In this document: positions 6,052 through 61,615 of the stretch, piece by piece
How the letters are laid out: the number at the start of each line of letters is the position of its first letter
Position numbering within the stretch: the first letter of the stretch is position 1
Assembly: GCF_001510655.1 (NCBI RefSeq)
Contig: NZ_LMVC01000002.1
Span: 718,390-782,389 of the forward strand
DNA: 64,000 nucleotides
Source: Fictibacillus sp. FJAT-27399
GTDB taxonomy: Bacteria > Bacillota > Bacilli > Bacillales > Fictibacillaceae
Direction: 5' to 3'
Notes under the pieces: generated by a model
What the model was told of the DNA's origin: nothing
What the model saw: the letters and a program-made list of their open reading frames with translations, nothing else
Databases searched by the model: none
Made by a program: the position numbers and the translations under genes

Positions 6052-6882
6052 GTGGTGAAAAAGATGACTTATAAACAAATTAAATGGTTAATTTTAATGC
6101 TGCCTACTGTATCTATAGGAATATGGGAGTATTTAAGACATACCTTGCTAATGCCTTATATATCGATGGAAACAGGTAATTTTTTATCTCCATTGATTGT
6201 TTTTGGGGTCACCATAATTTTCCTATTGAAACTTTTTAATATGCTGGAAAAGATTCAAGCGGAATTAAATGAAGAGCGATCTCAAAAAGGAGCTTTGCAG
6301 GAGAGGGCTAAGATTTCAAGAGAACTTCATGATGGAATCGCACAATCACTATTTCTATTATCTATTAAGATAAATAAAATAGGCAAACAGGCTAATCTGG
6401 ATAACAATCCTCATTTCATCAAAATGAAAAAAACACTTCAACATATCCATGAGGATACTAGACAAGCTATTAACAATTTACGTGTGCCACCTGTAGAATC
6501 AAACTTTAATTGGACAGATACGTTATTAAATCATATCCAAAGTATGGAAAAAGAACATCAATTCAAAGTTCAAATGACTTGGGAGATTGGAGAATCTTTG
6601 TTTTCAACGAAAGATAAGGTTGAGTTATATGCTTGCATAAAAGAAGCACTGATAAACGTTGTTAAACATGCAAGGACTAATCAAGTTTGGATTGATGCCC
6701 ATGAAACAAAAACGGGGTGGACCTGCATCATAAAGAATAAAACAGACCAACAATCCTTAGTTAACAGCCATAAGGGTTATGGGTTGCAAATATTAAAAGA
6801 CAGAGCCAAGGCGATGGGAAGCGATCTAAGTATTCATGTCCAGGATGGAGAAATGCTCATTGCTTTTGTAAAGGAGATATAG
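6052..6882 (+). CDS. Sensor histidine kinase, NarL/LiaS-type (HisKA_3)
   Basis: A 276-residue membrane kinase. Two hydrophobic segments (about residues 10-28 and 42-62) anchor it with almost no extracellular loop, so it may sense membrane state or a partner protein. The dimerisation/phosphoacceptor motif RAKISRELHDGIAQSLF has the conserved His. The HATPase part shows the N box (CIKEALINVVKHA) and G box (HKGYGLQILKDRAKAMG). The start may be the GTG listed or the ATG 12 nt later; neither has a strong ribosome site. It is followed 3 nt later by its response regulator. Confidence 0.87.
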   Translation: MVKKMTYKQIKWLILMLPTVSIGIWEYLRHTLLMPYISMETGNFLSPLIVFGVTIIFLLKLFNMLEKIQAELNEERSQKGALQERAKISRELHDGIAQSLFLLSIKINKIGKQANLDNNPHFIKMKKTLQHIHEDTRQAINNLRVPPVESNFNWTDTLLNHIQSMEKEHQFKVQMTWEIGESLFSTKDKVELYACIKEALINVVKHARTNQVWIDAHETKTGWTCIIKNKTDQQSLVNSHKGYGLQILKDRAKAMGSDLSIHVQDGEMLIAFVKEI

Positions 6883-6885
6883 ATT

Positions 6886-7527
6886 ATGCAAGAACCCATT
6901 CGTCTTTTGTTGGTGGACGATCACCAACATGCAAGAGAAGGAATCCAAGAACTTCTAGAGGAATATGAAGAGTTTCAAATTATCGGTGAAGCAACAAATG
7001 GCTCAGAAGCGATTGAATTAGCTGCTGAACTGCAACCGGACTTAATCTTGATGGACATTCGGATGCCAGTATTGGATGGTCTGGAAGCTACTAAAATCAT
7101 AAAATTTAAATACCCAACGATAAAAATCGTTATTATGACAGTTTCAGATGATATTACCGATTTATTTGAAGCGGTCAAACGAGGCGCGCAAGGTTATTTA
7201 TTAAAAAACTTAAATTCAAATGAATGGTACAGTTACTTGCGTGCTTTTGCTGTAGATGAAGCACCCATGTCACAAAATATGGCATTTCGAATTCTGGAAG
7301 AATTCACACAGAGCAAAAAACAAATAGAACAAACTCCTTTATCCGAGCGTGAAAAAGAAGTTTTACAACTGGTTGCCCAGGGTAAATCAAACCGTGACAT
7401 CGCTGAAACTATCTTTATTTCAGAGCATACGGTGAAAAGCCATCTAAAGAACATTCTAAGCAAGCTTCATCTGGATAACCGTGTTCAATTGACTAGTTAT
7501 GCTTACAGCAAAGGGTGGATTGAATAA
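6886..7527 (+). CDS. Response regulator, NarL/FixJ family
   Basis: A 213-residue transcription factor with an N-terminal receiver domain. Acidic pocket residues are in LLLVDDHQHA, the phosphoacceptor Asp is in LILMDIRMPVLDG, and the switch Lys is in RGAQGYLLKN. The C-terminal LuxR-type helix-turn-helix reads PLSEREKEVLQLVAQGKSNR and is followed by ISEHTVKSHLKNILSKL. It is the partner of the kinase just upstream. Likely targets are the adjacent envelope and metal genes, but no binding site can be named. Confidence 0.88.
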   Translation: MQEPIRLLLVDDHQHAREGIQELLEEYEEFQIIGEATNGSEAIELAAELQPDLILMDIRMPVLDGLEATKIIKFKYPTIKIVIMTVSDDITDLFEAVKRGAQGYLLKNLNSNEWYSYLRAFAVDEAPMSQNMAFRILEEFTQSKKQIEQTPLSEREKEVLQLVAQGKSNRDIAETIFISEHTVKSHLKNILSKLHLDNRVQLTSYAYSKGWIE

Positions 7528-46801: not shown

Positions 46802-47047
46802 AAGAAAATTTGCGAATAAACCAATAGTGACGTGACCGAAGCTCGCATGTTGCTAAATTTATTTACGTATTGGTCTTTAGTCAACCTCTATTGATTTCCT
46901 CCAAATCCTTTGAGATATAAAGTTTAGCATGGAGAAGTAGAATAAGAAGCACATGCGAATTAAAAGTGTGAAAACTGAAAAACGATTACCTATAGTAATT
47001 AATTTGCTACACTGGACCTATATCTTATTAAGAAATAGGTGAATGAG

Positions 47048-48592
47048 ATGCATTTAGCTGGTGTCACAATAAGAGAATTGCTCCGCCTTCCTGTTTTAAA
47101 AGATGCCAAAGTAATAAGTGGTGAAAAAGGATTAAGCCGTATCGTTCGCTTCGTGGACATTATGGAAGTCCCTGATGTTGAGGGTTGGCTTAGGGAGGGC
47201 GAATTACTACTCACCACTGCCTATTCTATCCGCCATGATACCGCCTTACTTTCGGAGTTAGTGGAGCAGCTAGTGCAAGCTGGTGCCGCAGCTTTAGCTA
47301 TTAAACCGGAAAGATTTATTTATGATATGCCGTTGGAAATGATAAAGGTGAGCAATCATCACAATTTACCTATTATCGAACTTCCTAGCGGGGTACCCTA
47401 CATGGATATAACCCATTCAGTTATGGAACAAATCATAGACAAGCAAGCATCCCTGCTGAGAAGATCAGATGAAATTTTCAAAACTTTAACGACCTTAGTA
47501 CTTGAGAATAGTGGCATTCAAGCAGTGGCGGATAATGTTTCAGCCTTAGTAAAATCGCCGATCTGGGTAATTGATAAATCTGGAGAGACCATCGTTTCAT
47601 CACCTTCTACACTGGCTTCTCCTCAGACGCGGGATAATACACGTTGTTGGGATATTACGGTAGATAAACAATTTGTTGGTAAATTAATCTTAAATAAGGA
47701 ACAATTAGATGATTTAGAGGTAGTTTGTGTGGAACAAGCACGACTCGTGTTTTCTCTAGAATTAATGAGAAGAAAAACAGTTTTGGACACGGAAAATAAA
47801 TTAAGAGGCGATTTTATTGAAGAACTATTAACCGGTTTGCCTTTTTCAAAACAAGAAGTAGAAAGTAAAGGCGCAAAATTCGGTTTGATGCCAGGGTGGA
47901 TATGGGAGATCGCTATCATTGAAGCGGAAAACTGCCTTTTTGATGAGGGTTCCCCTTTTTTAATGCAATTACATGAACGATTGAAACAAGAATTACCAAA
48001 AGGGCAGATTAAAGCGCATATCCACAAACAAGGACAACGGTTAGTACTATTGCTTGCTTCCCCAAGGTTAGAAGATTCCTCTATAAATCAGACTTTAAGT
48101 CATGAGAACTCTGAAAGTTGGAAACAAATTTTCACTCCCCTTATTGAAGAACAGAGCGGGATTTGTATCGGTTTTGGGGAGAAGTGTTTTTTATGGGAAG
48201 TCCAGAGGAGTTATTTGGAAGCCAAAAAGTCCATAATGATCGGGATGAGGATGGAAAAACATGGGAAAGTGTTCATGTTTAAAGAGATAGAAATGTTCCA
48301 AATGTTGTTGGATGCTGCTGATTATATCAATATGGATACATTTGTGGAGAAAAAAATCGGAATGCTATGTCAACATGACAAGGAAAATGGAACAGATCTT
48401 GTATCAACATTTTATTACTATTTAGCATCAGGTGGTAGCTTAATCCACACAGCAAATCATCTTTTCATTCATCGAAATTCTGTTAAGTACCGAATGAACA
48501 AAATTCGAGATATTGTCGGCATCGATTTAGAAAATTTTAGAGAGCGATTTGTGTATTATTGTTGCCTTACTTACCATCTATTAAAAAAATAG
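47048..48592 (+). CDS. PucR-family transcriptional regulator
   Basis: A 514-residue regulator. The N-terminal PucR domain (about residues 5-125: LAGVTIRELLRLPVLKDAKV, GWLREGELLLTTAYSIRHD) is followed by a CdaR/GGDEF-like middle. The C-terminal PucR helix-turn-helix is SLIHTANHLFIHRNSVKYRM. Start ATG behind AGGTG; a GTG three codons earlier is possible. PucR regulators control purine, proline or other nitrogen-compound catabolism genes. Own terminator follows. It is the presumed activator of the racemase/DUF917 genes downstream. Confidence 0.9.
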   Translation: MHLAGVTIRELLRLPVLKDAKVISGEKGLSRIVRFVDIMEVPDVEGWLREGELLLTTAYSIRHDTALLSELVEQLVQAGAAALAIKPERFIYDMPLEMIKVSNHHNLPIIELPSGVPYMDITHSVMEQIIDKQASLLRRSDEIFKTLTTLVLENSGIQAVADNVSALVKSPIWVIDKSGETIVSSPSTLASPQTRDNTRCWDITVDKQFVGKLILNKEQLDDLEVVCVEQARLVFSLELMRRKTVLDTENKLRGDFIEELLTGLPFSKQEVESKGAKFGLMPGWIWEIAIIEAENCLFDEGSPFLMQLHERLKQELPKGQIKAHIHKQGQRLVLLLASPRLEDSSINQTLSHENSESWKQIFTPLIEEQSGICIGFGEKCFLWEVQRSYLEAKKSIMIGMRMEKHGKVFMFKEIEMFQMLLDAADYINMDTFVEKKIGMLCQHDKENGTDLVSTFYYYLASGGSLIHTANHLFIHRNSVKYRMNKIRDIVGIDLENFRERFVYYCCLTYHLLKK

Positions 48593-48604
48593 AAGTATCT
48601 TTTC

Positions 48605-48643
48605 GCCCATTGTGCTGGAAGGACAATGGGCTCTATTTATTTT
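48605..48643 (+). terminator. pucR-type gene terminator
   Basis: GCCCATTGT-GCTGGAAGG-ACAATGGGC followed by TCTATTTATTTT. Confidence 0.8.
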
Positions 48644-48759
48644 GGTTAATGGGGACATTGTAGGAGATATCAGAAATCTATACAATTGTTGTAAGTATTC
48701 AATATATTCTCTTTTTTCAGAAATTTATAGTTACTACTTAAAGAAAGGGGATACATCTT

Positions 48760-49392
48760 ATGATTGGTGTTATACGTGTATTTACGACGGAAGATGATGA
48801 AGTTCTTGAACAGCATGGTAAGGTGATTTCAGATCGTTATAGAGTTCCAACGATAAATAAATGCATACCTAATCAGCCATTAGGGATCTTTAATGACGAG
48901 ACTGAAAAAATCGCTGTTCCAAAAATAGTGGAATTAGGAAAAATATTGCAACAAGATGGCTGTGAGGTTTTGGTTATTAGTTGTGCAGCGGATCCCGCGA
49001 TAGAGGAGCTTCGCAGTGAAGTAACAATTCCGGTAATTGGGGCAGGCAGCTCTGCTTCTCTCACTGCTTTAGCTATAGGGCAACCGGTCGGTGTCTTAGG
49101 TATCACAGACACTCCCCCAGCGATCATTAAAAATCTCTTAGGTGATTTGATGATTGGATACGCAAGGCCGGAGGGCGTTTCAAATACAACAGACTTGATG
49201 ACACCTTCCGGAAGAGAAAAAGGACTGGAAGCAGCTCGATCACTATTAGACCAGGGAGCGAAAGGTATTGTGTTTGCCTGTACCGGTTTTTCTACGATTG
49301 GGCTCGCTGATGTATTGAGGAAGACATTAAATGTTTATATAATTGATGCTGTGGAAGCAGAGGGATTGTATGCAGCGTCATTATATCAGTAG
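48760..49392 (+). CDS. Aspartate/glutamate/hydantoin racemase family protein
   Basis: A 210-residue cofactor-independent racemase-fold enzyme. The paired catalytic Cys are visible: Cys75 in LVISCAADPAIEEL and Cys174 in GIVFACTGFSTIG. The nearby AGSSASLTALAIGQPVGVLG belongs to the fold. Hydantoin racemases of this family are found with hydantoinases, as here. Start behind AAAGGGG. It sits alone between two terminators, so it may be separately regulated. Whether it racemises a hydantoin or an amino acid is open. Confidence 0.85.
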   Translation: MIGVIRVFTTEDDEVLEQHGKVISDRYRVPTINKCIPNQPLGIFNDETEKIAVPKIVELGKILQQDGCEVLVISCAADPAIEELRSEVTIPVIGAGSSASLTALAIGQPVGVLGITDTPPAIIKNLLGDLMIGYARPEGVSNTTDLMTPSGREKGLEAARSLLDQGAKGIVFACTGFSTIGLADVLRKTLNVYIIDAVEAEGLYAASLYQ

Positions 49393-49456
49393 GTCTGTTT
49401 CTCAGTGTTAAATTTCAGCTATCCAGTTAAGCGGGTTCTACTCTGATAGAACTGAA

Positions 49457-49495
49457 AGAAGGTGTACCTTTGGCGAAATCTTACCTTCTTTTTGT
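49457..49495 (+). terminator. Racemase gene terminator
   Basis: AGAAGGT and ACCTTCTTTTT pair around a 19-nt loop; T5 then GTTTGTGTTTTTATTT. Confidence 0.6.
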
Positions 49496-49592
49496 TTGTG
49501 TTTTTATTTGGGCTGCCAATTATCTTGTTCGCCAATTTTTACAGTCAGTGAAAAAACTTTAATTCTGTATTCAAAAAGTGAGGCGGGAAACT

Positions 49593-50654
49593 ATGGCAAA
49601 GATTAAATTAGATGAAGAATTAGTTAAGTATGCGGTTTATGGGGGAGCTATCCTGGGAGGCGGTGGAGGCGGCTGGATTGAAGATGGTCTTCAAATTGGA
49701 CGTCTGGCGACTGAAATTGGCGAGCCAGAACTTTATACCGTAGATGAGCTTAAAGATAAAGACTTGGTTGTAACGGTATCGTTAGTAGGTGCCCCTGCTG
49801 CCAAAGATAAATTCGTAAAACCGATTCATTATGCGAGAGCATTGGAAATTCTTACTGAAAAAATCGCTAAACCTATCCAAGGCATTATTACAAATGAAAA
49901 TGGAGCTGGAACAACAGTTAATGGATGGTTTCAATCGGCAGTAACTGGAATCCCCGTAATTGATATTCCTTGTAACGGACGAGCACATCCGACGGGTTCA
50001 ATGGGATCGATGAATTTATCGGAACAATCCGACTATGTTTCTCACCAGGCTGCGGCAGGCGGAAAAGGTACTAATTATCTGGAAATGAGCATTTCAGGTT
50101 CCCTTGACAAGGCGTCTACAATGATCCGTCAAGCATCAATAGAAGCAGGCGGCCTTTTAGCTGTTGCGAGAAACCCTGTTACCATCGGTTATGCTAAACA
50201 ACATGGTGCGGCTGGAGCCATTCAGCAAGCTATTGAAGTTGGTAAAGCCCTGTTAAGCTATCAAGGCGAAGCTGCCCTTGATGCTGTTGTGACAAAACTA
50301 GGCGGTAAAGTTGTTGCTGAAGGAACAGTTACTGATCACACCCTGGAAACGACAGGGGGATTTGATGTAGGAACAGTCACGATCAATGACACGTACGAAA
50401 TGACTTTCTGGAACGAGTACATGACGCTGGAACGAAATGGAGAGCGCTATGGCACATTCCCTGATCTTATTATGACCTTTGACGCAAAAACCGCAAAACC
50501 TATTGTTTCAGCAGCCATCGAAAAGGGACAGCAAATTGCCGTCATTGCAATTCCAAAGGAAAATTTAATTCTTAGCAGTACAATGAGAAATGAAAAGTTG
50601 ATGAAACCGGTTGAAGACATTATAAAGAAATCCATTCTTCAATATAGTTATTAA
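49593..50654 (+). CDS. DUF917 (S-methyl-thiohydantoin desulfurase-like) protein
   Basis: A 353-residue protein. KYAVYGGAILGGGGGGWIED and the segment VTVSLVGAPAAKDKFVKPIH define DUF917, later linked by name to S-methyl-thiohydantoin desulfurase. NENGAGTTVNGWFQSAVTGI, then VIDIPCNGRAHPTGSMGSMN, contains the conserved Cys and His. Start ATG 49593 (GAGGCGGG upstream). First of four tightly spaced genes (DUF917, DUF1177, AroM, M29-like). It probably acts on a hydantoin-like ring; this is inference from family naming and neighbours. Confidence 0.85.
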   Translation: MAKIKLDEELVKYAVYGGAILGGGGGGWIEDGLQIGRLATEIGEPELYTVDELKDKDLVVTVSLVGAPAAKDKFVKPIHYARALEILTEKIAKPIQGIITNENGAGTTVNGWFQSAVTGIPVIDIPCNGRAHPTGSMGSMNLSEQSDYVSHQAAAGGKGTNYLEMSISGSLDKASTMIRQASIEAGGLLAVARNPVTIGYAKQHGAAGAIQQAIEVGKALLSYQGEAALDAVVTKLGGKVVAEGTVTDHTLETTGGFDVGTVTINDTYEMTFWNEYMTLERNGERYGTFPDLIMTFDAKTAKPIVSAAIEKGQQIAVIAIPKENLILSSTMRNEKLMKPVEDIIKKSILQYSY

Positions 50655-50674
50655 GAAAACGGGGGACGATAAAA

Positions 50675-51625
50675 ATGGTACTGAAACAAACTCTGATCGC
50701 ACTAGATACGCTGGACAGTGCTTATGTCGATGGGGGAATTGTGCAAGAATTGTTCAATAAATATCCCGATGTTTCTGTAACGGTTAAAACAGTTACTAGC
50801 GAAAGGGGGAGCACTGATTTTATTAAGATTGTCATTCCGGGAACCAGGGGAAAAATCAAAGGCGGGGACACGCCTACCTTTGGAATTATCGGCCGTCTTG
50901 GTGGAGTCGGAGCGCGCCCTAGTCGCATTGGTATGGTTTCCGACGGTGATGGTGCAGCGGCCACAATTGCTTCTGCTTTGAAACTTGCGGACATGCAAAC
51001 CAAAGGAGATACCTTGGAAGGAGATGTTATTGTCACTACTCACATTTGTCCAAATGCACCGACACTTCCACATGAACCAGTAGACTTTATGGATTCCCCA
51101 GTCGATATCTTGACTATGAATAAACATGAAGTGTTACCGGAGATGGATGCGATTCTTTCGATTGATACGACCAAGGGAAATCGTATTATCAACCATAAGG
51201 GAATTGCCATATCGCCAACGGTGAAGGAAGGGTATATCCTTCGTATCAGTGATGATCTGCTCCGGATTATAGAGATGACAACAGGGCAATTTGCTGTCAC
51301 ATTCCCAATAACCACACAGGATATTACACCCTATGGAAACGGTCTCTATCACTTGAATTCGATTTTACAGCCGGCTGTAGCCACCGATTCTCCAGTAGTG
51401 GGAGTAGCGATCACCGCACAATCTATAGTGCCTGGCTGCGGTACGGGGGCTAGTCATGAAAATGACATCGCAGATGCTGCTCGTTTCGCCATAGAGGTGG
51501 CAAAGGAAACTACGAATGGCACATGTCAATTTTATAGCAAAAATGAATTTGACCAAATCACACAACTCTACGGTTCTATGAAAATGTTACAGACCATGGG
51601 CGAAAAAGCTTCTCATCATGGATAA
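50675..51625 (+). CDS. DUF1177 domain protein
   Basis: A 316-residue protein filling the DUF1177 family length. Conserved blocks: DTLDSAYVDGGIVQELFNKY, RIGMVSDGDGAAATIASALK, VTTHICPNAPTLPHEPVDFM, SIVPGCGTGASHENDIADAA. The SDGDGA, THICP and PHEP pieces resemble metal-binding motifs of zinc peptidases, so a metallohydrolase role is possible but unproven. Start behind GGGGG, 20 nt after DUF917. Always seen (as I recall) with AroM and hydantoinase genes. Confidence 0.8.
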   Translation: MVLKQTLIALDTLDSAYVDGGIVQELFNKYPDVSVTVKTVTSERGSTDFIKIVIPGTRGKIKGGDTPTFGIIGRLGGVGARPSRIGMVSDGDGAAATIASALKLADMQTKGDTLEGDVIVTTHICPNAPTLPHEPVDFMDSPVDILTMNKHEVLPEMDAILSIDTTKGNRIINHKGIAISPTVKEGYILRISDDLLRIIEMTTGQFAVTFPITTQDITPYGNGLYHLNSILQPAVATDSPVVGVAITAQSIVPGCGTGASHENDIADAARFAIEVAKETTNGTCQFYSKNEFDQITQLYGSMKMLQTMGEKASHHG

Positions 51626-51670
51626 TCAGGGGAGTTTCCCCTGTATTCATTAAACAATGGGGGTCAGGAG

Positions 51671-52342
51671 ATGGAGAGACTAGGAATGATTACAATCGGC
51701 CAAGCTCCGAGGACTGATATAGCTCCAATTATTGAAAAATTTTTGGATGGGCGAGCTGAACTTGTTCAGGTTGGAGTCTTGGACGGAATGACAAAAGAGC
51801 AGATTGAACAGCATTTATATCCAGAATCCGATGACTATGTGTTAACATCCAGATTGGTCTCAAATGAATCTGTCGTCATGTCTCGAGAGAAAATTAAACC
51901 TATTTTACAAGCAAAAATTAACTACCTTGAAGAAATAGGAATCAAACAAATGTTGCTTCTTTGTACAGGCGTTTTCCCGGGACTTACAACTAGCAATTCC
52001 TACTTGATTGAACCGGATCGTATCATTCCGCCAACAGTAAATGCACTCGTTGCTAGGCGCCGTTTTGGCGTAATTGTGCCTCTTGTTGAGCAAAAATACA
52101 TTCTGAAACCAAAATATTCCCCATTTGGACTGGAACCAGTCTTTGCAGTCGCTTCCCCCTATGAAAATGATGAAGCTAGCTTTATTGAAGCAGCAAGTGA
52201 GCTTAAGGGCAAAGTGGACATTATTTTACTCGACTGTATGGGTTACACTGAGAAAGCAAGAGAGTTGTTATCAAATGCTATGGGATTGCCGGTTCTACTT
52301 TCTAATTCGATGATGGCAAAATTGGTATCAGAAATGATTTAA
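51671..52342 (+). CDS. AroM family protein
   Basis: A 223-residue protein related to E. coli AroM (function unknown). Start MERLGMITIGQAPRTDIAPI is typical. Two Cys lie in racemase-like settings: Cys98 in KQMLLLCTGVFPGL and Cys189 in DIILLDCMGYTEKA. The spacing of 91 residues is similar to the 99 in the neighbouring racemase. This suggests the Asp/Glu racemase superfamily fold and a possible isomerase or racemase role. GTCAGGAG site; in operon with DUF1177 and the M29-like gene. Confidence 0.82.
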   Translation: MERLGMITIGQAPRTDIAPIIEKFLDGRAELVQVGVLDGMTKEQIEQHLYPESDDYVLTSRLVSNESVVMSREKIKPILQAKINYLEEIGIKQMLLLCTGVFPGLTTSNSYLIEPDRIIPPTVNALVARRRFGVIVPLVEQKYILKPKYSPFGLEPVFAVASPYENDEASFIEAASELKGKVDIILLDCMGYTEKARELLSNAMGLPVLLSNSMMAKLVSEMI

Positions 52343-52358
52343 CAAAGGATGATAAAAA

Positions 52359-53309
52359 ATGAACGAGCAGATGACTATAATCAGTAAAACCGTTCTAAAA
52401 GACTGTCTTGGTCTTCAAGAACAGGAAACGTTTCTTGTTGTGACTGATGATAGTAAGAAGGATCTTGCGTCATCATTATATGAAGCAGGCAAAGCGCTGG
52501 GGGCAGAATCTATTCTCCTCGTCATGAAGGAAAGAGAAAAATCAGGGCAAGAACCGCCTAGTTCAGTTGCCACTGCCATGACACAAGCCAATGTAGTTGT
52601 TTGCATAACTGAACATTCTTTAACCCATACACATGCCCGCAAGAATGCTGCTGCTGCTGGTGCCCGGTTGGCCACGATGCCCGGAATTACTGAGGATATG
52701 TTTCTACAAGGTGCTATTTCCGCTGACTATTCAAAAGTAAAAGAATTGACGGAACGTGTTACCGAATTTTTGACAAAAGGAAACAATGTGAGGATTCAAA
52801 AAGGGGGATATACCCTTTCGTTCTGCATTACTGATCGAAAAGGGATACCTAGTACTGGAATGTATTTAAATCCGGGTGAATCTGGTAATCTACCCTCGGG
52901 TGAATCGTATATTGCTCCAGTAGAAGGGACCGCATCTGGCCAAGTTTTAATAGATGGGTCTGTGGCTGGAATCGGAAGATTACAATCTCCGTTGCTGCTG
53001 AACATTGAACAGGGTCGAATTGTAGGAGCAGAAGGAGAAGCAGCAGAAGAATTAATGAACATCTTAGGAGACAGCGACGGAAGGCTTCTTGGAGAGTTTG
53101 GTATAGGCACCAATGACAAAGCGAGGATTACAGGCGTAGTGCTTGAAGATGAAAAAGTATACGGAACGATCCATGTTGCTTTTGGAAGCAATAATACCTT
53201 TGGAGGAACGATTTCGGCAGGTGTTCACATTGATGGAGTCGTCATAAAACCAGATATCTATATCGATGAACAATTAATTATGAAAAACGGACAATTAAAC
53301 GAATCGTAA
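52359..53309 (+). CDS. M29 aminopeptidase / NicX-like metalloprotein
   Basis: A 316-residue protein with the C-terminal metal site of M29 aminopeptidases and the related NicX dioxygenase. Candidate ligands are Glu182 in NLPSGESYIAP, Glu246 in LGEFGIGTND, His272 in TIHVAFGSNNTFGG, and His290/Asp292 in HIDGVVIKPDI. The N-terminal ~140 residues are a Rossmann-like domain (LVVTDDSKKDLASSLYEAGK). It lies 16 nt after AroM and ends the four-gene unit. It may cleave a dipeptide or open a ring; the family contains both activities. Confidence 0.8.
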   Translation: MNEQMTIISKTVLKDCLGLQEQETFLVVTDDSKKDLASSLYEAGKALGAESILLVMKEREKSGQEPPSSVATAMTQANVVVCITEHSLTHTHARKNAAAAGARLATMPGITEDMFLQGAISADYSKVKELTERVTEFLTKGNNVRIQKGGYTLSFCITDRKGIPSTGMYLNPGESGNLPSGESYIAPVEGTASGQVLIDGSVAGIGRLQSPLLLNIEQGRIVGAEGEAAEELMNILGDSDGRLLGEFGIGTNDKARITGVVLEDEKVYGTIHVAFGSNNTFGGTISAGVHIDGVVIKPDIYIDEQLIMKNGQLNES

Positions 53310-53527: not shown

Positions 53528-53556
53528 TTGTCTATTTATAATATTTGGTGTATAAT
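53528..53556 (+). promoter_or_regulatory. hyuAB promoter
   Basis: TTGTCT (53528-53533), exactly 17 bp, TATAAT (53551-53556). Expected transcription start is near 53563, just before the shared 19-bp motif. Confidence 0.7.
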
Positions 53557-53570
53557 TAAATAGAACCATC

Positions 53571-53589
53571 GGTTCTCAAATAGAGACAA
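53571..53589 (+). promoter_or_regulatory. Putative IclR operator, copy 1
   Basis: GGTTCTCAAATAGAGACAA, 17 of 19 bases identical to the copy upstream of the iclR gene at 57603. It contains the dyad TCTC-N5-GAGA. Placed just downstream of the promoter, where a bound repressor would block transcription. Confidence 0.6.
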
Positions 53590-53674
53590 AATAGTTCTAT
53601 TTTTTGGAATTGGACTTGTTTTTTTACATTTCATCCGCTTAAAAAGACAAAATTAAAAATGAAAGGTGATACAT

Positions 53675-55720
53675 ATGCGAATTTCTACAGATATTGGCGG
53701 GACATTTACTGACCTTGTTTATGTTGATGACAAGGGTGTGTTTGGTCATGCCAAAGCTCATACTACTCCACCTTATTTCGAAAAAGGAGTCATCGATGTT
53801 ATTGAGAAAAGTGGAATTGATTTGAAAACGGTTCAAACGTTTATTCATGGTTCTACTGTCATCATCAATGCTCTTACGGAACGTAAAGGAGTAAAAACAG
53901 GATTAATTACAACAAAAGGAACAAGAGATGTTTTAGAAATAGCCAGAGGCAACAGGCCGGATCTTTATAATTTTCGTTACCAAAAACCAAAACCGTTTGT
54001 TGAACGATATTTGCGCAGGGAAGTAGGGGAACGGTTGAATTACAAAGGGGAAGTGATCACTCCCTTAAACGTAGAACAAATAAAAGAGATTGTTTCTTTC
54101 TTTAAAAAAGAAAATGTACAAGCGATTGCAGTAACTTATTTGCACTCATATGTAAATCCAATACATGAAAAACAAACGGTTGAACTGATACAACTATTAT
54201 GGCCTGAAGTCGCGGTCACTGCTTCACATGAGGTTACGAAAGAATGGCGCGAATACGAAAGAACAAACACCACTGTTTTTAACTCCTACGTAAAACCGAT
54301 TGCTGCTTCCTACGTGGATAGGCTTCATGACCGACTTCGTGACGTTGATATAAACGGAAACAATTACATAATGCAATCGAATGGGGGCACCACAACCTTT
54401 GATTATGCGAAACAAACACCCATTAATATGGTGGAATCGGGGCCAGTTGCCGGGGTTTATGGAGCGGCCGTTTTGGGTGAAATTTTAGGAGAAGAGAACA
54501 TAATTGCCTTCGACATTGGAGGAACAACGGCAAAATGTTCGTTAATCAATAAAGGGGAAGTAAAAATAACAACCGATTATTATGTAGAAAAGACAGATAA
54601 AAACGCTGGTTATCCAATCAAAGTCCCAGTTGTTGACATAGTAGAAATCGGAAATGGTGGCGGCTCCATTGCTTGGATTGATGAAACCGGCTCGCTTAAG
54701 GTTGGGCCACAGTCCGCAGGATCGATACCAGGTCCAGTTGCATATGGACAGGGAGGAACAGAGCCCACAACAACAGATGCTAACCTTATCACCGGCCGTC
54801 TGTCCAAAGAAAATTTTGATTACGAAGTAGACCTAGAAAAGGTTAAAGACGCTATAAATAACAAAGTAGCAAAACATTATGAGACCACGATAGAAGAAGC
54901 CGCACTTGGAATTATACAGATTGCTAATTCGAACATGCTTAATGCATTAAAATTAATATCTGTCCGAAAAGGTTATGATCCACGAGATTTTTCGCTCATG
55001 GCGTTTGGAGGAGGAGGTTCCATGCATGCAGCTGCCTTGGCCAAAGAATTGGGCGTCAAAAAGGTCATTGTCCCTGTGGCTTCCTCCGTTTTTTCCTCAT
55101 GGGGTATGTTGATGACCGATTTACGTCACGACTATATTCAAACTCATATCAAACGATTAACCAATGTAGATTTACATGCATTAAACTCGGAATGGAATAA
55201 GTTAGAGTCCGAGGCCATAGCTCAATTCATGGAGGAAGGTGTACAAGCGATCCGTGTTGTCTGCAGTCGTTTTGCCGATATGAGGTATTTAGGCCAAGAG
55301 CATACCGTTAAGGTACCGGTACCAAATGGCGAATGGACAGAGGATGATTTAAAACACACGATCGAAAAATTCCATTATCTTCATGAGCAAAATTACACTT
55401 TTCAACTGCCTGAATCACCAACAGAGATTGTCAATTTGCACTTAACCGCTTTTGGAAAGGTAGACAAACCAGAGTTGCGAATATTGGAATCAAAGGGCGG
55501 ATCGTTAAAAGAGGCTTTGAAAGAAAAGCGACCAGTGTTTTTTGAGGAAGAGGGATGGCTAGAAGCTGAAGTCTATAATCGTGATAAATTGGAACCTCTA
55601 CTGAAAGTAGTAGGGCCAGCAATCATAGAAGAATCTTCGGCTTCGACCGTCATTTATCCAGGACAGTCCCTTGAAGTTGATCAATATGGAAATCTTATTA
55701 TTGAAACAGGAGTTGAATAA
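53675..55720 (+). CDS. hyuA: Hydantoinase/5-oxoprolinase subunit A
   Basis: A 681-residue ATP-dependent amidohydrolase subunit of normal length. The actin-like ATP site starts RISTDIGGTFTDLVYVDD, with NIIAFDIGGTTAKCSLINKG as the second phosphate loop. FIHGSTVIINALTERKGVKT and MESGPVAGVYGA-type text (VESGPVAGVYGAAVLGEILG) are typical. Start at ATG 53675 behind AAAGGTG. It works with subunit B to hydrolyse a cyclic amide (hydantoin, 5-oxoproline) at ATP expense. Controlled by the promoter and motif just upstream. Confidence 0.92.
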   Translation: MRISTDIGGTFTDLVYVDDKGVFGHAKAHTTPPYFEKGVIDVIEKSGIDLKTVQTFIHGSTVIINALTERKGVKTGLITTKGTRDVLEIARGNRPDLYNFRYQKPKPFVERYLRREVGERLNYKGEVITPLNVEQIKEIVSFFKKENVQAIAVTYLHSYVNPIHEKQTVELIQLLWPEVAVTASHEVTKEWREYERTNTTVFNSYVKPIAASYVDRLHDRLRDVDINGNNYIMQSNGGTTTFDYAKQTPINMVESGPVAGVYGAAVLGEILGEENIIAFDIGGTTAKCSLINKGEVKITTDYYVEKTDKNAGYPIKVPVVDIVEIGNGGGSIAWIDETGSLKVGPQSAGSIPGPVAYGQGGTEPTTTDANLITGRLSKENFDYEVDLEKVKDAINNKVAKHYETTIEEAALGIIQIANSNMLNALKLISVRKGYDPRDFSLMAFGGGGSMHAAALAKELGVKKVIVPVASSVFSSWGMLMTDLRHDYIQTHIKRLTNVDLHALNSEWNKLESEAIAQFMEEGVQAIRVVCSRFADMRYLGQEHTVKVPVPNGEWTEDDLKHTIEKFHYLHEQNYTFQLPESPTEIVNLHLTAFGKVDKPELRILESKGGSLKEALKEKRPVFFEEEGWLEAEVYNRDKLEPLLKVVGPAIIEESSASTVIYPGQSLEVDQYGNLIIETGVE

Positions 55721-55721
55721 G

Positions 55722-57464
55722 ATGCCGTCTAACATAAAGAACAAAATTAATCCGTTTACCATAGAGATCATTAAGGATTCGCTTATTTCCATTGGTGATG
55801 AAATGTTCCATGCACTCGCTCGCACATCGATGAGCCCGATTATATACGAGGTGCTCGATTATGCTTGTGGTTTAACGGATGCCAAAGGCAAATTAGTAAG
55901 TCAAGGAAATGGTGTAACCAGTTTTATCGGTATGTTAAGCCCAATGGTTCAGCATGTATTACAAAAGTTTCACGACGGTAAGACCTTAAAGCAGGGGGAT
56001 ATTATTATCATCAACGATCCTTATGTCGGTGGTGGCTCCCATTTGTCCGATGTCGGTTTGGTTATGCCGATTTTTTATGATGGGGAATTGGTGGCTTTTT
56101 CAGCAAATAAAGGTCACTGGACGGAAGTGGGAGGAAAAGACCCCGGATCGTTTACAAGTGACTCTACAGAAATCTACCAAGAAGGGCTACAGCTTCCCGG
56201 AATCAAACTCTTTGATGAAGGCCGTTTAAATCAAGCAGTGGTTGATATTATTGAGACAAATGTAAGGTTTCCTCAACTTTCTCTTGGTGATATGTGGGCC
56301 CAAATCGCTGCCTTACGCACAGGAGAAAGAAGATTTCTTGAGCTATGCGAAAAATATGGAAAGGAAATGGTGGTTTCCTCTATTGAGCACTTATTGCAAC
56401 AAGGAGAACAATTCGCCATAAAGGAACTTAAAAAATTGCCGATGGGAACGTATACGGCAAAAAGCTATATTGAGGATGATGGAGCAACGGGCGGGCCATT
56501 TCCTATTCAAGTTAAGGTGACTATTACTGAAGATGAATTCATTTGTGATTTTCGAGGTAGCCACCCACAAGTGATATCACCCGTCAATTGTTCTTCCTAT
56601 GCTTTATTGGCCAGTGTGCGGGTAATGTTTCTTGCGGTAATTAAACCGAGCCAAGATGTAAATGAGGGAATGTTCCTTCCATTAAAAATCATCACAGACG
56701 AAGGATCCATTGTTTCTGCTAAACGACCAGCACCAGTATCCATGAACTTTGAAGCTCGAATGGGAGGAGCAGATGTCATTTGGCAAGCTCTAGCACCGTT
56801 GCTTCCCGAACGATTAACGGCAGGTAACTTGCTCTCAGTCTGCTCAGTAGTATTAACTGGTAACCATCAGGATTCAAATGAGCCATTTTTAATAGTAGAA
56901 CCGTCTGTCGGAGGATGGGGAGCAGGAAAAGGCAAGGATGGCGAGCGTGGGCAATTTTGTATGGGGAATGGTGAGACTTATAACGTTCCAATCGAAGTTG
57001 CCGAAACCAGATACGGTGTATTAGTTGAGGACTACGCATTGCGCTGTGATGGAGCTGGGTTAGGGAAGTATAATGGCGGGTCAGGGGTAATTCGTTCTTA
57101 CCGTGCTTTAAGCAATAATCAAAAGTTGTCCGTTAACTTTGGCCGTCATCAATTTGCGCCATGGGGAATGAACTCTGGCGAGAATGGATCTCCAAACTAC
57201 GTGGTCATACAAAAAGCAAACGGCGAAACGGCAGGCCCTTTTGGGATTTCCGCAAGATTCCCGTTAGATGAAGGGGATCTGGTCCAACTAGTGACGGCAA
57301 CAGGCGGCGGATACGGTAATCCGTATGACCGGCCGGTTGAAAAGGTCGTTAACGATGTAAAAAATGGCTATATTCCATTGGAAAAGGCAAAAGAAATATT
57401 CGGTGTCATTATTAACCCGGATAATTTTGAAGTACAGGAGTTAATGCGTGACCGAAAAAAATAA
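55722..57464 (+). CDS. hyuB: Hydantoinase/5-oxoprolinase subunit B
   Basis: A 580-residue partner subunit. INPFTIEIIKDSLISIGDEM, IIINDPYVGGGSHLSDVGLV and DVNEGMFLPLKIITDEGSIV match HyuB. The C-terminal GNPYDRPVEKVVNDVKNGY is the usual ending. The start lies one base after the hyuA stop, with CAGGAG inside hyuA, so translation is coupled. The metal-binding His and Asp of the B subunit are in the NDPYxGGxHLxD motif. Followed by a perfect terminator. Confidence 0.92.
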   Translation: MPSNIKNKINPFTIEIIKDSLISIGDEMFHALARTSMSPIIYEVLDYACGLTDAKGKLVSQGNGVTSFIGMLSPMVQHVLQKFHDGKTLKQGDIIIINDPYVGGGSHLSDVGLVMPIFYDGELVAFSANKGHWTEVGGKDPGSFTSDSTEIYQEGLQLPGIKLFDEGRLNQAVVDIIETNVRFPQLSLGDMWAQIAALRTGERRFLELCEKYGKEMVVSSIEHLLQQGEQFAIKELKKLPMGTYTAKSYIEDDGATGGPFPIQVKVTITEDEFICDFRGSHPQVISPVNCSSYALLASVRVMFLAVIKPSQDVNEGMFLPLKIITDEGSIVSAKRPAPVSMNFEARMGGADVIWQALAPLLPERLTAGNLLSVCSVVLTGNHQDSNEPFLIVEPSVGGWGAGKGKDGERGQFCMGNGETYNVPIEVAETRYGVLVEDYALRCDGAGLGKYNGGSGVIRSYRALSNNQKLSVNFGRHQFAPWGMNSGENGSPNYVVIQKANGETAGPFGISARFPLDEGDLVQLVTATGGGYGNPYDRPVEKVVNDVKNGYIPLEKAKEIFGVIINPDNFEVQELMRDRKK

Positions 57465-57478
57465 AGTTACGTCGAGAG

Positions 57479-57509
57479 AACAAAAGCTCTGATTGATAGA
57501 GCTTTTGTT
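57479..57509 (+). terminator. hyuAB terminator
   Basis: AACAAAAGCTCT and AGAGCTTTTGTT perfect stem. Confidence 0.8.
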
Positions 57510-57551
57510 ATGTTATTTAGCAATTAAATTTCAGAAAATTCAACAAATATA

Positions 57552-57580
57552 TTGATTATTTTTATTTTGAAAGCTAAAAT
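57552..57580 (+). promoter_or_regulatory. iclR promoter
   Basis: TTGATT (57552-57557), 17-bp spacer, TAAAAT (57575-57580); start of transcription expected near 57587. Confidence 0.6.
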
Positions 57581-57602
57581 AATCATAATAAAAGGAAACG
57601 TT

Positions 57603-57621
57603 GGTTCTTATATAGAGACAA
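57603..57621 (+). promoter_or_regulatory. Putative IclR operator, copy 2
   Basis: GGTTCTTATATAGAGACAA, differing from the hyuA copy at two positions, and in the same place relative to the promoter. It lies 12 bp before the iclR start codon, so autoregulation is likely. Confidence 0.6.
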
Positions 57622-57633
57622 CAGAGGTGCATA

Positions 57634-58398
57634 ATGGCATTAAAAACATTAGACAATTCATTAGAACTTCTTAAGTATTTTACAAAGCAACATCCATCTT
57701 GGGGCGTTCGTGAATTAGCAAAAGAAATCGGTATTAGCCATTCTATTGTTTATAGGATTTTGGCTACATTTCAAAATCATGGGTTCTTGGTTCAAAATAA
57801 AGAATCGAAAAAATACGAATTGGGTATCCGCTTCTTAGAATACGGTCATATAGTTCAAGACAAAATGCGTTTATCAGATGTTATTTTCCCTATTATGAAA
57901 GGGCTATCGGAGAAAACGGAGGAATCTATTTTTCTTACTTGGCTTGATGCAATGGAAGGCATCACCGTTGAGATTGCAGAAAGTAATCAAAGAATTAAAT
58001 TTGCCGTGTCTTTAGGAACAAGAACTCCTCTATATGCTGGTGCATCTTGTAAAGTCATCATGGCTTTTCTACCAAAAGAAAAACAAACGGAGATTGTTCA
58101 TAAAGGGATTGCACCATTTACTGATAAAACTATCCTTGACACTGAAAAATTGCTGATGGATTTACAAGATATACGGAAAAAAGGGTGGTGTTATTCCATT
58201 GGGGAATACTCAGAATCCGTATTTGGATTAGGTGTACCCTTATTTAATAGTAAGAATGAAATTATTGCTTCTTTAACCATGGCAGGACCTGAATTTCGAA
58301 TGCCGGAACATAAAGTCCCAAATGCTTTAGAAATACTTCAAATGGAAGCACAAAAAATTCAAAGCCATTTAAAAAATTATAGTTTCATGTACGTCTAA
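57634..58398 (+). CDS. IclR-family transcriptional regulator
   Basis: A 254-residue regulator. Winged helix: LDNSLELLKYFTKQHPSWGV, RELAKEIGISHSIVYRILAT, FQNHGFLVQNKESKKYELGI. The effector domain runs from about residue 75 and contains YAGASCKVIMAFLPKEKQTE and YSESVFGLGVPLFNSKNEII. AGAGGTG precedes the ATG. It lies between hyuAB and the OPT transporter, and a shared motif sits in front of both hyuA and this gene. It probably senses the pathway substrate or an intermediate. Confidence 0.92.
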   Translation: MALKTLDNSLELLKYFTKQHPSWGVRELAKEIGISHSIVYRILATFQNHGFLVQNKESKKYELGIRFLEYGHIVQDKMRLSDVIFPIMKGLSEKTEESIFLTWLDAMEGITVEIAESNQRIKFAVSLGTRTPLYAGASCKVIMAFLPKEKQTEIVHKGIAPFTDKTILDTEKLLMDLQDIRKKGWCYSIGEYSESVFGLGVPLFNSKNEIIASLTMAGPEFRMPEHKVPNALEILQMEAQKIQSHLKNYSFMYV

Positions 58399-58492: not shown

Positions 58493-60121
58493 ATGAAAAA
58501 ACAAAATGAGGAATTAAAGGAAAAAAAGAATCATCCCAAAGCTACGGATCCATTTACATTATTTTTAACGATAGCAACGGCTGTCATTGGGGCAATTATA
58601 GGGTTACAACTTATCGTTACACTCGGGATTTCAGCTAATACGGCTATTATTGGTGCTTTACTTGCTATGGTTATATCGAGGATTCCTATTCGAGTTTTAA
58701 ATAAATATCGTTCGGTACATCGTCAAAACCTTATACAAACCTCGATATCATCCGCAACATTTGGGGCTGCTAACAGCCTAATGATACCAATTGGAATTCC
58801 ATTTATCATGGGGGAAACCGGCTTAATTCTTCCGATGCTTATTGGGGCCGCACTTGCAATGCTGCTGGATGCCACCATTTTATACAAGCTATTTGATACA
58901 AAGATATTTCCTGCTTCAGAAACCTGGCCACCTGGTGTTGCCACTGCAGAATCCATTGTTGCTGGCGATCAGGGAGGAAAAAGGGCAGGACTCCTAGGTA
59001 TTGGTGCTGCTGGAGGGATATTCGGTTCATTTTTAGGTGTCCCAATGTCTGCTTTTGGTGTAGCATTTATCGGTAATATATGGGCTATTACCATGTTCGG
59101 CATAGGTCTTCTACTTCGGGCATATTCCGGCCCTTTATTCGGTGTAGACTTAAACAAATCCTACATTCCTCATGGTTTTATGATCGGTGCAGGATTAGTA
59201 GCCTTAATACAAGTAGCACTTATTATATTTAAGAAGAATAAGAGTGTAAATGTTTCTAAAAAAGAGATTGCTGCTTCCGTAGATTCACCCATTCCGGATG
59301 AGACAAGAACAGATAAGGATATATCAAAAGCATTCGGATATGGTTTCTTAGCGTACTTGGCAGTCGCGTTCATTCTAGCCATAATGGGTGGAATCCTAAC
59401 AGATATGTCCCTGGGTATGTTCATTATCTATTTACTTTTTGCATCGTTCGCTGCCTTTGTACATGAAATCATAGTAGGGATAGCGGCCATGCATTCTGGA
59501 TGGTTTCCGGCATTCGCCGTAGCACTTATTACTTTAATTATAGGTATGTTAATAGGATTCCCTCCGGTTGCACTCGGGTTACTTGTAGGCTTTAGTGCAG
59601 CAACCGGCCCAGCGTTTGCGGATATGGGTTATGATCTTAAAACAGGCTACATGTTAAGGGGTAATGGGAAAGATCGAGAATTTGAATTATCAGGGAGAAA
59701 ACAACAATACATTACATCGATGATTGCTTTTGTCGTGGCCACTCTCGTCGTTTTCTTTGCCTATAACAGTTATTTTGCTCAAAACTTAGTAGCTCCCGTA
59801 GACAAAGTTTACGTAGCCACTATTGAAGCGGGTGTGTCTAAGCATATAGCATGGGAATTATTCCTATGGGCCATTCCAGGAGCATTGTTACAATTTTTCG
59901 GAGGAACCAAACGACAAATGGGTGTTTTGTTTGCCACAGGATTACTAATTTTTTATCCTATGGCTGGATGGGCAGTGATTGCAGGAATTCTTATCCGTGT
60001 AATTGTCTTGAAGGTAAAGGGGCAACAGGCCGAAACTCCAATGAGTATTTTGGCCGCTGGATTCATTGCAGGAGATGCTCTATACAGTTTCTTTAGTTCC
60101 ATTTTTAAAATAAGCAAATAG
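58493..60121 (+). CDS. OPT-family (oligopeptide/YSL-like) transporter
   Basis: A 542-residue integral membrane protein with about 13-15 helices, e.g. LFLTIATAVIGAIIGLQLIV, GLILPMLIGAALAMLLDATI and MFIIYLLFASFAAFVHEIIV. Family features include FPASETWPPGVATAESIVAG and the NxxxE/PxG-rich loops. OPT carriers import oligopeptides, glutathione-like thiols or metal chelates with protons. AAAGGGGG precedes the ATG. No IclR motif was found in the 94-bp gap, so it may be read through from iclR. Likely imports the island's substrate. Confidence 0.87.
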   Translation: MKKQNEELKEKKNHPKATDPFTLFLTIATAVIGAIIGLQLIVTLGISANTAIIGALLAMVISRIPIRVLNKYRSVHRQNLIQTSISSATFGAANSLMIPIGIPFIMGETGLILPMLIGAALAMLLDATILYKLFDTKIFPASETWPPGVATAESIVAGDQGGKRAGLLGIGAAGGIFGSFLGVPMSAFGVAFIGNIWAITMFGIGLLLRAYSGPLFGVDLNKSYIPHGFMIGAGLVALIQVALIIFKKNKSVNVSKKEIAASVDSPIPDETRTDKDISKAFGYGFLAYLAVAFILAIMGGILTDMSLGMFIIYLLFASFAAFVHEIIVGIAAMHSGWFPAFAVALITLIIGMLIGFPPVALGLLVGFSAATGPAFADMGYDLKTGYMLRGNGKDREFELSGRKQQYITSMIAFVVATLVVFFAYNSYFAQNLVAPVDKVYVATIEAGVSKHIAWELFLWAIPGALLQFFGGTKRQMGVLFATGLLIFYPMAGWAVIAGILIRVIVLKVKGQQAETPMSILAAGFIAGDALYSFFSSIFKISK

Positions 60122-60231: not shown

Positions 60232-61347
60232 ATGATAGAAACCAGGAGAGGCAAATTGGTAGAACGTCTGAAAGAAAAAGGCTTAGACGCAGTAGTAATT
60301 GTACCCGGAGCCAATATGAGCTATTTTACAGGAATATCCTTAAAACAAACTGAACGGTTAATTCTAACCGTGATAACTACAAATGGGGATTTATTTTTTA
60401 TTGTTCCGCAAGTCGAGAAAAGTAAGTTCGAAATGGAAGGAAGTGGACTTGTTTTTTGGTATACCGATGAGCAAGGAGCTACTAAAGCGTTAACAGAATT
60501 TTTATCGAAATCGGGGACGCTTGAAAAAGTAGGAATTGAATATGGCAGGATGACAGTTAAGGAATTAAAAGCAGTAGAATCTTTGGATCCTATCACTATT
60601 GACGATATTAGCGATCTTGTTGACTCACTTAGGTTATATAAAGATGAACAAGAAATTGATATGTGTAAAAAGGCCGTAAATATAGTAGAAGAAAGTTTAC
60701 ATAACACTTTACCTTTTATTAAACCGGGAGTAAAGGAAACAGAAATAGCTGCTCGATTAGAATATGAAATGCGTAAAAGAGGTTCCCAAGCGACTCCTTT
60801 TGAGACAATAGTGGCTTCCGGTTATCGAGGTGCTCTACCTCATGGACGTGCATCTGAAAAACAGATTCAAAACGGAGAATTAGTGGTTCTTGATTTCGGT
60901 GCGGTTTTCCAAGGTTATGTAGCTGATATAACTAGAACGGTGGCTGTTGGTGAGATTTCAAATGAGTTTAAAGAGATTTATGACATCGTGAAGGAAGCGC
61001 AGCAGGCAGCTATAAATGCAGCTAAAGCTGGTATAACCTCTCATGAAGTGGACGAGGCCGCCCGAAAGGTGATTAGACATAAAGGTTATGGGGAATTTTT
61101 CACTCATCGTACAGGACACGGTATTGGCTTAAACGGTCATGAACAGCCATATATTATGCAAACAAACCAGCTTGTTTTAAAACCTGGAATGACTTTTACC
61201 ATTGAACCGGGTATTTATCTTCCACACAAAGGAGGAGTTCGTATTGAGGACAACATCGTAATTAACAACCACGGAGTGACGAACCTTATGACTTATACAA
61301 AAGAATTAATCATATTAAACGGGGAGTGTTCTAGAGTTGAATCTTGA
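60232..61347 (+). CDS. M24 family Xaa-Pro-type aminopeptidase
   Basis: A 371-residue pita-bread metallopeptidase. The N-terminal creatinase-like domain (about residues 5-130, VIVPGANMSYFTGISLKQTE) precedes the catalytic part. Metal ligands: Asp in VLDFGAVFQGYVADITRTVA, His in FTHRTGHGIGLNGHEQPY, Glu in TFTIEPGIYLP and Glu in GGVRIEDNIVI. AGAAGGAA precedes the ATG. Its last codons overlap the next gene start. It could release an amino acid from an imported dipeptide or cleave a modified peptide produced by the island. Confidence 0.9.
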   Translation: MIETRRGKLVERLKEKGLDAVVIVPGANMSYFTGISLKQTERLILTVITTNGDLFFIVPQVEKSKFEMEGSGLVFWYTDEQGATKALTEFLSKSGTLEKVGIEYGRMTVKELKAVESLDPITIDDISDLVDSLRLYKDEQEIDMCKKAVNIVEESLHNTLPFIKPGVKETEIAARLEYEMRKRGSQATPFETIVASGYRGALPHGRASEKQIQNGELVVLDFGAVFQGYVADITRTVAVGEISNEFKEIYDIVKEAQQAAINAAKAGITSHEVDEAARKVIRHKGYGEFFTHRTGHGIGLNGHEQPYIMQTNQLVLKPGMTFTIEPGIYLPHKGGVRIEDNIVINNHGVTNLMTYTKELIILNGECSRVES

Positions 61348-61615
61348 GAAAGTCAGAACAGACACCCCTTTACATCAACAATATTCATATTTTGATACGG
61401 CTGCCGCCTCCACACCGCCTCGTCAAGTAGTGGAACAAATGGTGGACTATTTAGAAAAGACGAGTAATTTGAGAACGTATCATCCTACATTTCGAAAACA
61501 CATTTATCAAACAGTCAATGACATCAGAAAAAAGGTAGCAGACCTTTTAGGCGAAAATTCCAGTGAGATTGCGTTTACGAGAAATGGAACAGAAGGGATA
61601 AATTTAATTGGTTAA
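61337..61615 (+). pseudogene. Class V aminotransferase, N-terminal fragment
   Basis: Ninety-two codons match the beginning of NifS/CefD-like PLP enzymes: YSYFDTAAASTPPRQVVEQM, TYHPTFRKHIYQTVNDIRKK, SSEIAFTRNGTEGINLI. The rest (about 290 residues with the PLP Lys) is absent. A stop follows directly where the sequence turns unrelated. TTG start overlaps the M24 stop, so it once belonged to that operon. The break near 61615 marks the right edge of the catabolic island. Confidence 0.75.

Follow-up and report, generated by a model that had tools for sequence, protein, structure and literature searches.

Two 26-bp elements, each composed of three half-sites of alternating direction at fixed spacing, were found in front of hyuA and iclR of Fictibacillus sp. 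FJAT-27399. This element is very probably an operator of the IclR-family regulator, because related bacteria carry it with the same spacing before the gene of the regulator and before the adjacent genes of peptide metabolism. The window analysed here comprises 64,000 nucleotides of contig NZ_LMVC01000002.1 (assembly GCF_001510655.1, positions 718,390 to 782,389 of the forward strand). With high confidence, both elements are regarded as sites of the protein encoded at 57634-58398, which would thereby repress hyuAB and iclR. Comparison established where the sites lie, how their boxes are spaced, that they go together with iclR and that promoter-like sequences precede them. The features of the window are as follows.

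53528-53556, plus strand: predicted sigma-A promoter of hyuA, TTGTCT-17-TATAAT (10/12)
53562-53587, plus strand: predicted three-box operator of hyuA, AGAACC-atc-GGTTCT-caaat-AGAGAC, matrix score 32.2 (leave-one-out 26.8)
53562-53567, 53571-53576 and 53582-53587, plus strand: the boxes of the hyuA operator, from the alignment of related sites
53675-55720, plus strand: hyuA, A subunit of the hydantoinase/oxoprolinase/caprolactamase type (Pfam PF01968, PF05378, PF19278), proposed IclR target
55722-57464, plus strand: hyuB, B subunit (Pfam PF02538), proposed IclR target
57552-57580, plus strand: predicted promoter of iclR, TTGATT-17-TAAAAT (9/12, weak on its own)
57594-57619, plus strand: predicted three-box autoregulatory operator, GGAAAC-gtt-GGTTCT-tatat-AGAGAC, matrix score 35.1 (leave-one-out 30.7)
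57594-57599, 57603-57608 and 57614-57619, plus strand: the boxes of the iclR operator, from the alignment of related sites
57634-58398, plus strand: iclR, IclR-family regulator (HTH_IclR, IclR_C), proposed binder of both operators
58493-60121, plus strand: gene of an OPT-family oligopeptide transporter (Pfam PF03169)
60232-61347, plus strand: gene of an M24 (Xaa-Pro-type) peptidase (Pfam PF00557)

Architecture of the three-box element

A preliminary description of the window had pointed to two similar 19-mers, GGTTCTCAAATAGAGACAA (53571) and GGTTCTTATATAGAGACAA (57603), each behind a promoter with a 17-bp spacer. Both 19-mers lie at these positions on the plus strand and are identical at 17 of 19 positions, with two positions differing, and promoter-like hexamers spaced by 17 bp are present ahead of each (10/12 at hyuA, 9/12 at iclR). 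Within the window alone this match is only suggestive, since no ungapped 19-bp alignment of the two intergenic regions exceeds 17 identities and 7 of 500 dinucleotide shuffles gave at least 17. A degenerate form of the 19-mer occurred three times in the window with up to three mismatches (shuffle mean 0.28) and 14 times in the 4.5-Mb genome of the strain (reversed control 9); the two places in the window were the only ones in this genome that matched it free of mismatches. The dyad TCTC-N5-GAGA, which had been described for the hyuA copy, is present there, but it was rejected as the conserved symmetry because it requires a C that the iclR copy does not have; it is outside that symmetry and incidental.

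The 19-bp motif is thus real, but it was drawn too short: each 19-mer is preceded, at a distance of 3 bp, by a third conserved half-site that had been overlooked. In G022, a genome of the same family, the iclR orthologue (71% identity) carries GGTTCTAATATAGAGACAA 12 bp before its start codon, and related sequences stand in front of the hyuA and OPT genes. The upstream half-site is common to both sites of the window and to the hyuA and OPT sites of G022, and it is degraded at iclR of G022. As a result of this comparison the element was redrawn as the three-box sites 53562-53587 and 57594-57619, with the pattern GAAMC-N3-GKTTC-N7-GARAC, the conserved parts being GKTTC-N7-GARAC and the upstream GAAMC. 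In the alignment of 15 sites, information content reached 2.4 to 3.2 bits at the G and the C in each box and about 0.2 in the flanks.

Boxes 2 and 3 represent the IclR 'group 1' inverted repeat (core GKTYC-N7-GRAMC), with which the 15-site consensus GKTTC-N7-GARAC agrees; the third base of box 3 deviates, being G in 9, A in 5 and T in 1 of the 15 sites. Boxes 1 and 2 form an inverted repeat with 3 bp between the hexamers, as in 'group 2', so that the middle box is common to both pairs. In the 17 homologous iclR loci described below, sites were also picked by boxes 2 and 3 without regard to box 1. Eleven of these loci then showed box 1 (GRWMC) precisely at the offset expected for it (+1); a single case each occurred at +2 and +15, and the 26 offsets from -25 to 0 gave none. 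This test supersedes an earlier count of 14/16, which was biased because the sites had been chosen with a matrix containing box 1. A fourth box downstream of box 3 showed no preferred offset in 16 sites.

Box 1 was intact in 18 of 22 sites at iclR promoters (L009 left out) and in 11 of 11 sites at target promoters, the latter found with a matrix that favoured box 1; the difference is not significant (Fisher p = 0.28), and the four sites without box 1 include two genomes of one genus. It is conceivable, although rather doubtful, that boxes 1 and 2 or boxes 2 and 3 are bound by alternative arrangements of the IclR dimer that compete for the middle box, and that feedback and target control are tuned separately through loss of box 1 at the autoregulatory site.

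Occurrence in related genomes

A scan for the three-box pattern with at most four mismatches covered ten sequences, namely the window, L009 and eight loci from the sampled genomes. The pattern was detected at iclR in the window, G022, G377, G131, G286 and G169 and before the more distant iclR genes of G336 (48% identity) and G057 (43%), at hyuA in the window, G022, G286 and G169, and at the OPT gene in G022, G377 and G131. The preliminary description had proposed to look for the motif before orthologous iclR and hyuA genes, and here the comparison bore it out and added the OPT genes. At this threshold L009 and L026 gave no match, and three extra matches in L015 overlapped sites already counted or read them on the reverse strand. 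L009 (Sporolactobacillus, 70% identity) holds a degenerate site with a score of 10.5; it was one of two loci returned by a search of genome contigs with iclR, and the other, L010 (27% identity, Rhodobacteraceae), was set aside.

For a test on unseen sequences, 398 sampled genomes of the class yielded 17 iclR homologues (E 1e-70 or better, 45-66% identity) from 15 genomes other than that of the strain, none of which had been used for the matrix of 15 sites. Within 200 bp upstream of 14 of the 17, the matrix found a site whose score was not equalled in any of 300 first-order Markov resamples of that stretch. Twelve of these 14 sites scored at least 14 bits, and the weak ones were L047 (12.9) and L054 (5.7). 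The 200 bp upstream of iclR held no site in L049, L057 and L056 (45% identity; genome G746, examined in its 1.5-kb flanks only). In L049 (extended as L072) and L057 (extended as L073) a site precedes the OPT gene heading a same-strand row that ends in iclR (scores 20.2 and 18.8). Upstream of the homologue in L014 (43% identity) no site was found. Sites were also found at iclR loci where hyuAB was not detected nearby.

When 397 sampled genomes of the order were searched with at most one mismatch allowed, the pattern matched 11 times, in 9 genomes, and the reversed control once. Promoters of iclR, hyuA or OPT genes in G000, G131, G169, G286 and G377 account for seven of these matches; the remaining four (L037-L040) fall within open reading frames of other genes, one of them a distant IclR gene (29% identity). 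All 5 of the sampled genomes whose iclR orthologue reaches 66% identity or more had a match, compared with 4 of the 392 others (p = 1.6e-9), which shows rarity of the pattern elsewhere and not an independent discovery, since the pattern was drawn up after the sites of all five were known; G336, with its 48% homologue, is counted among the 392, and its site with three mismatches stays unmatched at this threshold. In the genome of the strain, the sites of the window have 0 and 1 mismatches, and three weak matches with three mismatches stayed at the level of the reversed control (4) and are not counted as further members of the regulon.

Near the regulator gene, three-box sites thus stand at the starts of iclR itself and of adjacent operons (hyuA, OPT and M24 genes), as expected for autoregulation. 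The earlier proposal of an IclR operator with autoregulation and control of hyuA is well supported by this association with orthologous iclR genes and likely target promoters.

Position relative to promoters and alternative explanations

In the 5.4-kb region, 18 promoter-like matches were counted, no excess over the shuffle mean of 16.1. Before hyuA of L015, L023 and L024, the corresponding sequence is TTGAAA or TTGATA-17-TATAAT. A sigma-A-like promoter with at least 10/12 matches and a -10 element ending 0-25 nt before box 1 was present at 19 of 31 sites, a set that excludes the weak sites of L047 and L054; Markov resamples averaged 0.9, with 5 at most, and 0 to 2 were counted in other windows. 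The remaining 12 sites, including that of iclR in the window (9), fell below 10/12, and L068-L070 scored at most 6. At the sites with a good promoter match, the distance from the -10 element to the start of box 1 is 2 to 22 nt. With the transcription start taken as 7 nt after the -10 element, the boxes would lie at about -1 to +25 at hyuA and +8 to +33 at iclR.

Such a position just behind promoter-like sequences fits repression by blocking of initiation or of promoter escape. The preliminary description had favoured a roadblock. A true elongation roadblock is compatible with the position of the site as a special case, and blocked initiation or promoter escape appears at least as likely, the site lying about the predicted transcription start. 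One operator would be situated at the predicted start of hyuAB transcription and the other at that of iclR, with the OPT and M24 genes downstream. Unliganded IclR, as dimer or tetramer, would cover the sites and block initiation or promoter escape, and an imported peptide-like compound, possibly cyclic or a lactam, might free the protein from the sites and switch on uptake and breakdown. IclR would also hold down its own synthesis. For binding, repression, effector and pathway we infer what the arrangement suggests, and the direction, repressor or activator, is read from position alone.

With the site still assigned to IclR, it is unlikely that this protein activates transcription, as PcaU or PobR do, instead of repressing it, as a protein bound where box 1 lies at 19 of 31 sites, behind the -10 element, would normally obstruct RNA polymerase. 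The usual place of activators is upstream of -35. In favour of activation, the IclR family includes activators and dual regulators, as stated in the study of Suvorova and Gelfand 2021 (PMC8222616). The 254-aa protein of the window was assigned to the family by PF09339 (47.3 bits, cut-off 22) and PF01614 (120.5 bits, cut-off 24), and its best NCBIfam profile is that of PcaR/PcaU/PobR (TIGR02431), at 134.6 bits below the cut-off of 284.75. Improbable as well is the binding of a different regulator, either a second IclR paralogue or PucR. A first look at the genome of the strain gave seven candidate iclR-like places including this iclR, of which no other passed E 1e-40, and there is a pucR gene at a distance of 10 kb on the upstream side. 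However, the site occurs at the promoter of iclR itself across genomes, including L021-L024, L059 and L060, in which no pucR homologue was found (E 1e-20), and it was not found in the scanned intergenic regions of the pucR cluster. No third site with a score of at least 14 was detected in the whole window, and the regions upstream of pucR and between pucR and racemase, racemase and DUF917, DUF1177 and AroM, iclR and OPT, and OPT and pepQ gave none (best score -6.2).

The hyuA leader could also act at the RNA level, as a hairpin, attenuator or terminator, since the stretch 53558-53602 can form an AT-rich 9-bp stem (AAATAGAAC/GTTCTATTT) followed by T's that encloses most of the three boxes; its fold reached a z of -2.19, with 6 of 200 shuffles folding as well, and a terminator-like match is present on the minus strand at 53562-53576. 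Fold prediction for three other hyuA leaders (z 0.61, -1.04 and -0.41), in which the boxes are conserved, did not give this stem, the fold of the iclR leader is unremarkable (z -1.27), and no Rfam family reached its gathering score between 46500 and 62000. A structured RNA or riboswitch was rejected on the missing Rfam match and the absence of the fold from the three leaders, and control at the RNA level is very improbable; the hairpin is possibly a local extra. A mere chance similarity of two AT-rich leaders is hardly credible, because other genomes and the unseen homologues show the element in the same place with the same spacing, even though shuffling of the two intergenic regions equalled 17/19 in 7 of 500 cases. 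The reading preferred here remains that of an operator for repression by IclR.

Putative regulon and comparison with known IclR operators

In the window, the OPT gene is probably cotranscribed with iclR, as suggested by their adjacency. It has a three-box site of its own in L015, L021, L022, L072 and L073 and none in the window, and the same applies to the M24 peptidase gene, with sites of its own in L065 and L066. Genes that recur behind or beside the sites encode OPT, DUF917 (S-Me-THD-like), DUF1177, AroM, an M29-type peptidase, an Asp/Glu/hydantoin racemase, the M24 peptidase and HyuAB. L025, L061 and L062 yielded no OPT homologue; there, genes for proteins of an Opp-type peptide ABC transporter stand between iclR and the DUF917/DUF1177 genes (20 chosen reading frames were scanned in all, for L062 the binding protein alone, and one of the 20 was AroM of the window). 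Opp-type proteins occur together with an M19 dipeptidase in L027. This exchange of OPT for an Opp-type transporter suggests a peptide-like substrate. Genes for hydantoin racemase, DUF917, AroM and OPT are enriched in cyclodipeptide oxidase gene clusters, according to PMC11055893, which makes cyclic dipeptides or hydantoin-like rings candidate substrates, as a lead.

Just upstream of hyuA (47039-53309), the window contains a pucR-racemase-DUF917-DUF1177-AroM-M29 cluster without a three-box site. In several relatives, the enzyme genes of this cluster stand behind IclR sites. The cluster is possibly the same pathway, placed under a different regulator, PucR, in the genome of the strain. A 92-aa frame of the window (61337-61615) looks, as judged by eye, like what is left of the N-terminus of a class-V aminotransferase. 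In L015 the gene after that of the M24 peptidase is a complete frame of 404 aa (6125-7339) that begins similarly, and in L065 a class-V aminotransferase (Pfam) occupies this place. In L072 (11958-15358), OPT and AroM were each matched in two pieces, possibly due to frameshifts.

The three boxes with their common middle box offer a clean test of the published, unproven idea, set out in PMC8222616, that IclR proteins are able to dimerise on DNA in two ways. The operator and its regulon are also open to test for poorly characterised peptide/lactam genes in Bacilli-type genomes, namely those of the OPT transporter, DUF917, DUF1177, AroM, the M29- and M24-type peptidases and HyuAB. A literature search returned no paper that brings together at least three of IclR, hyuA, hydantoinase and operator, and for DUF1177 an unrelated mention only.

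TtgV is an IclR-family regulator of an efflux pump that binds DNA as a tetramer. It is a distant sequence relative of the IclR protein of the window (PDB 2xrn/2xro; E 9.5e-12), and the TtgV-DNA structure, in contrast to the site described here, does not show the three-box geometry. The operators of PcaU and PobR of Acinetobacter, as described in PMC8222616, also consist of a palindrome and an extra half-site that is needed for binding in PcaU. Their 17-bp core TGTTC-N7-GMACA compares with GKTTC-N7-GARAC. They control aromatic catabolism, whereas the neighbours in the window encode peptide or lactam enzymes, and unlike them the present sites lie downstream of promoter-like sequences.

PMC8222616 also reports a three-box architecture predicted for 32 IclR orthologous groups and proposes two modes of dimerisation. 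As in those motifs, the boxes of the window alternate in direction and the sites lie near the gene start; one pair fits the GTT-11-AAC subtype of group 1, which is over-represented in Firmicutes, and the other fits group 2. The IclR regulators treated there usually control themselves and one or two adjacent operons, as is proposed here. In contrast to the published motifs, box 3 is often GAGAC instead of GRAMC, and in the group 2 pair A and T frequently take the outer positions where the published motifs have T and A. The present site would thus add to the published three-box IclR operators, or is possibly already contained among the 32 groups.
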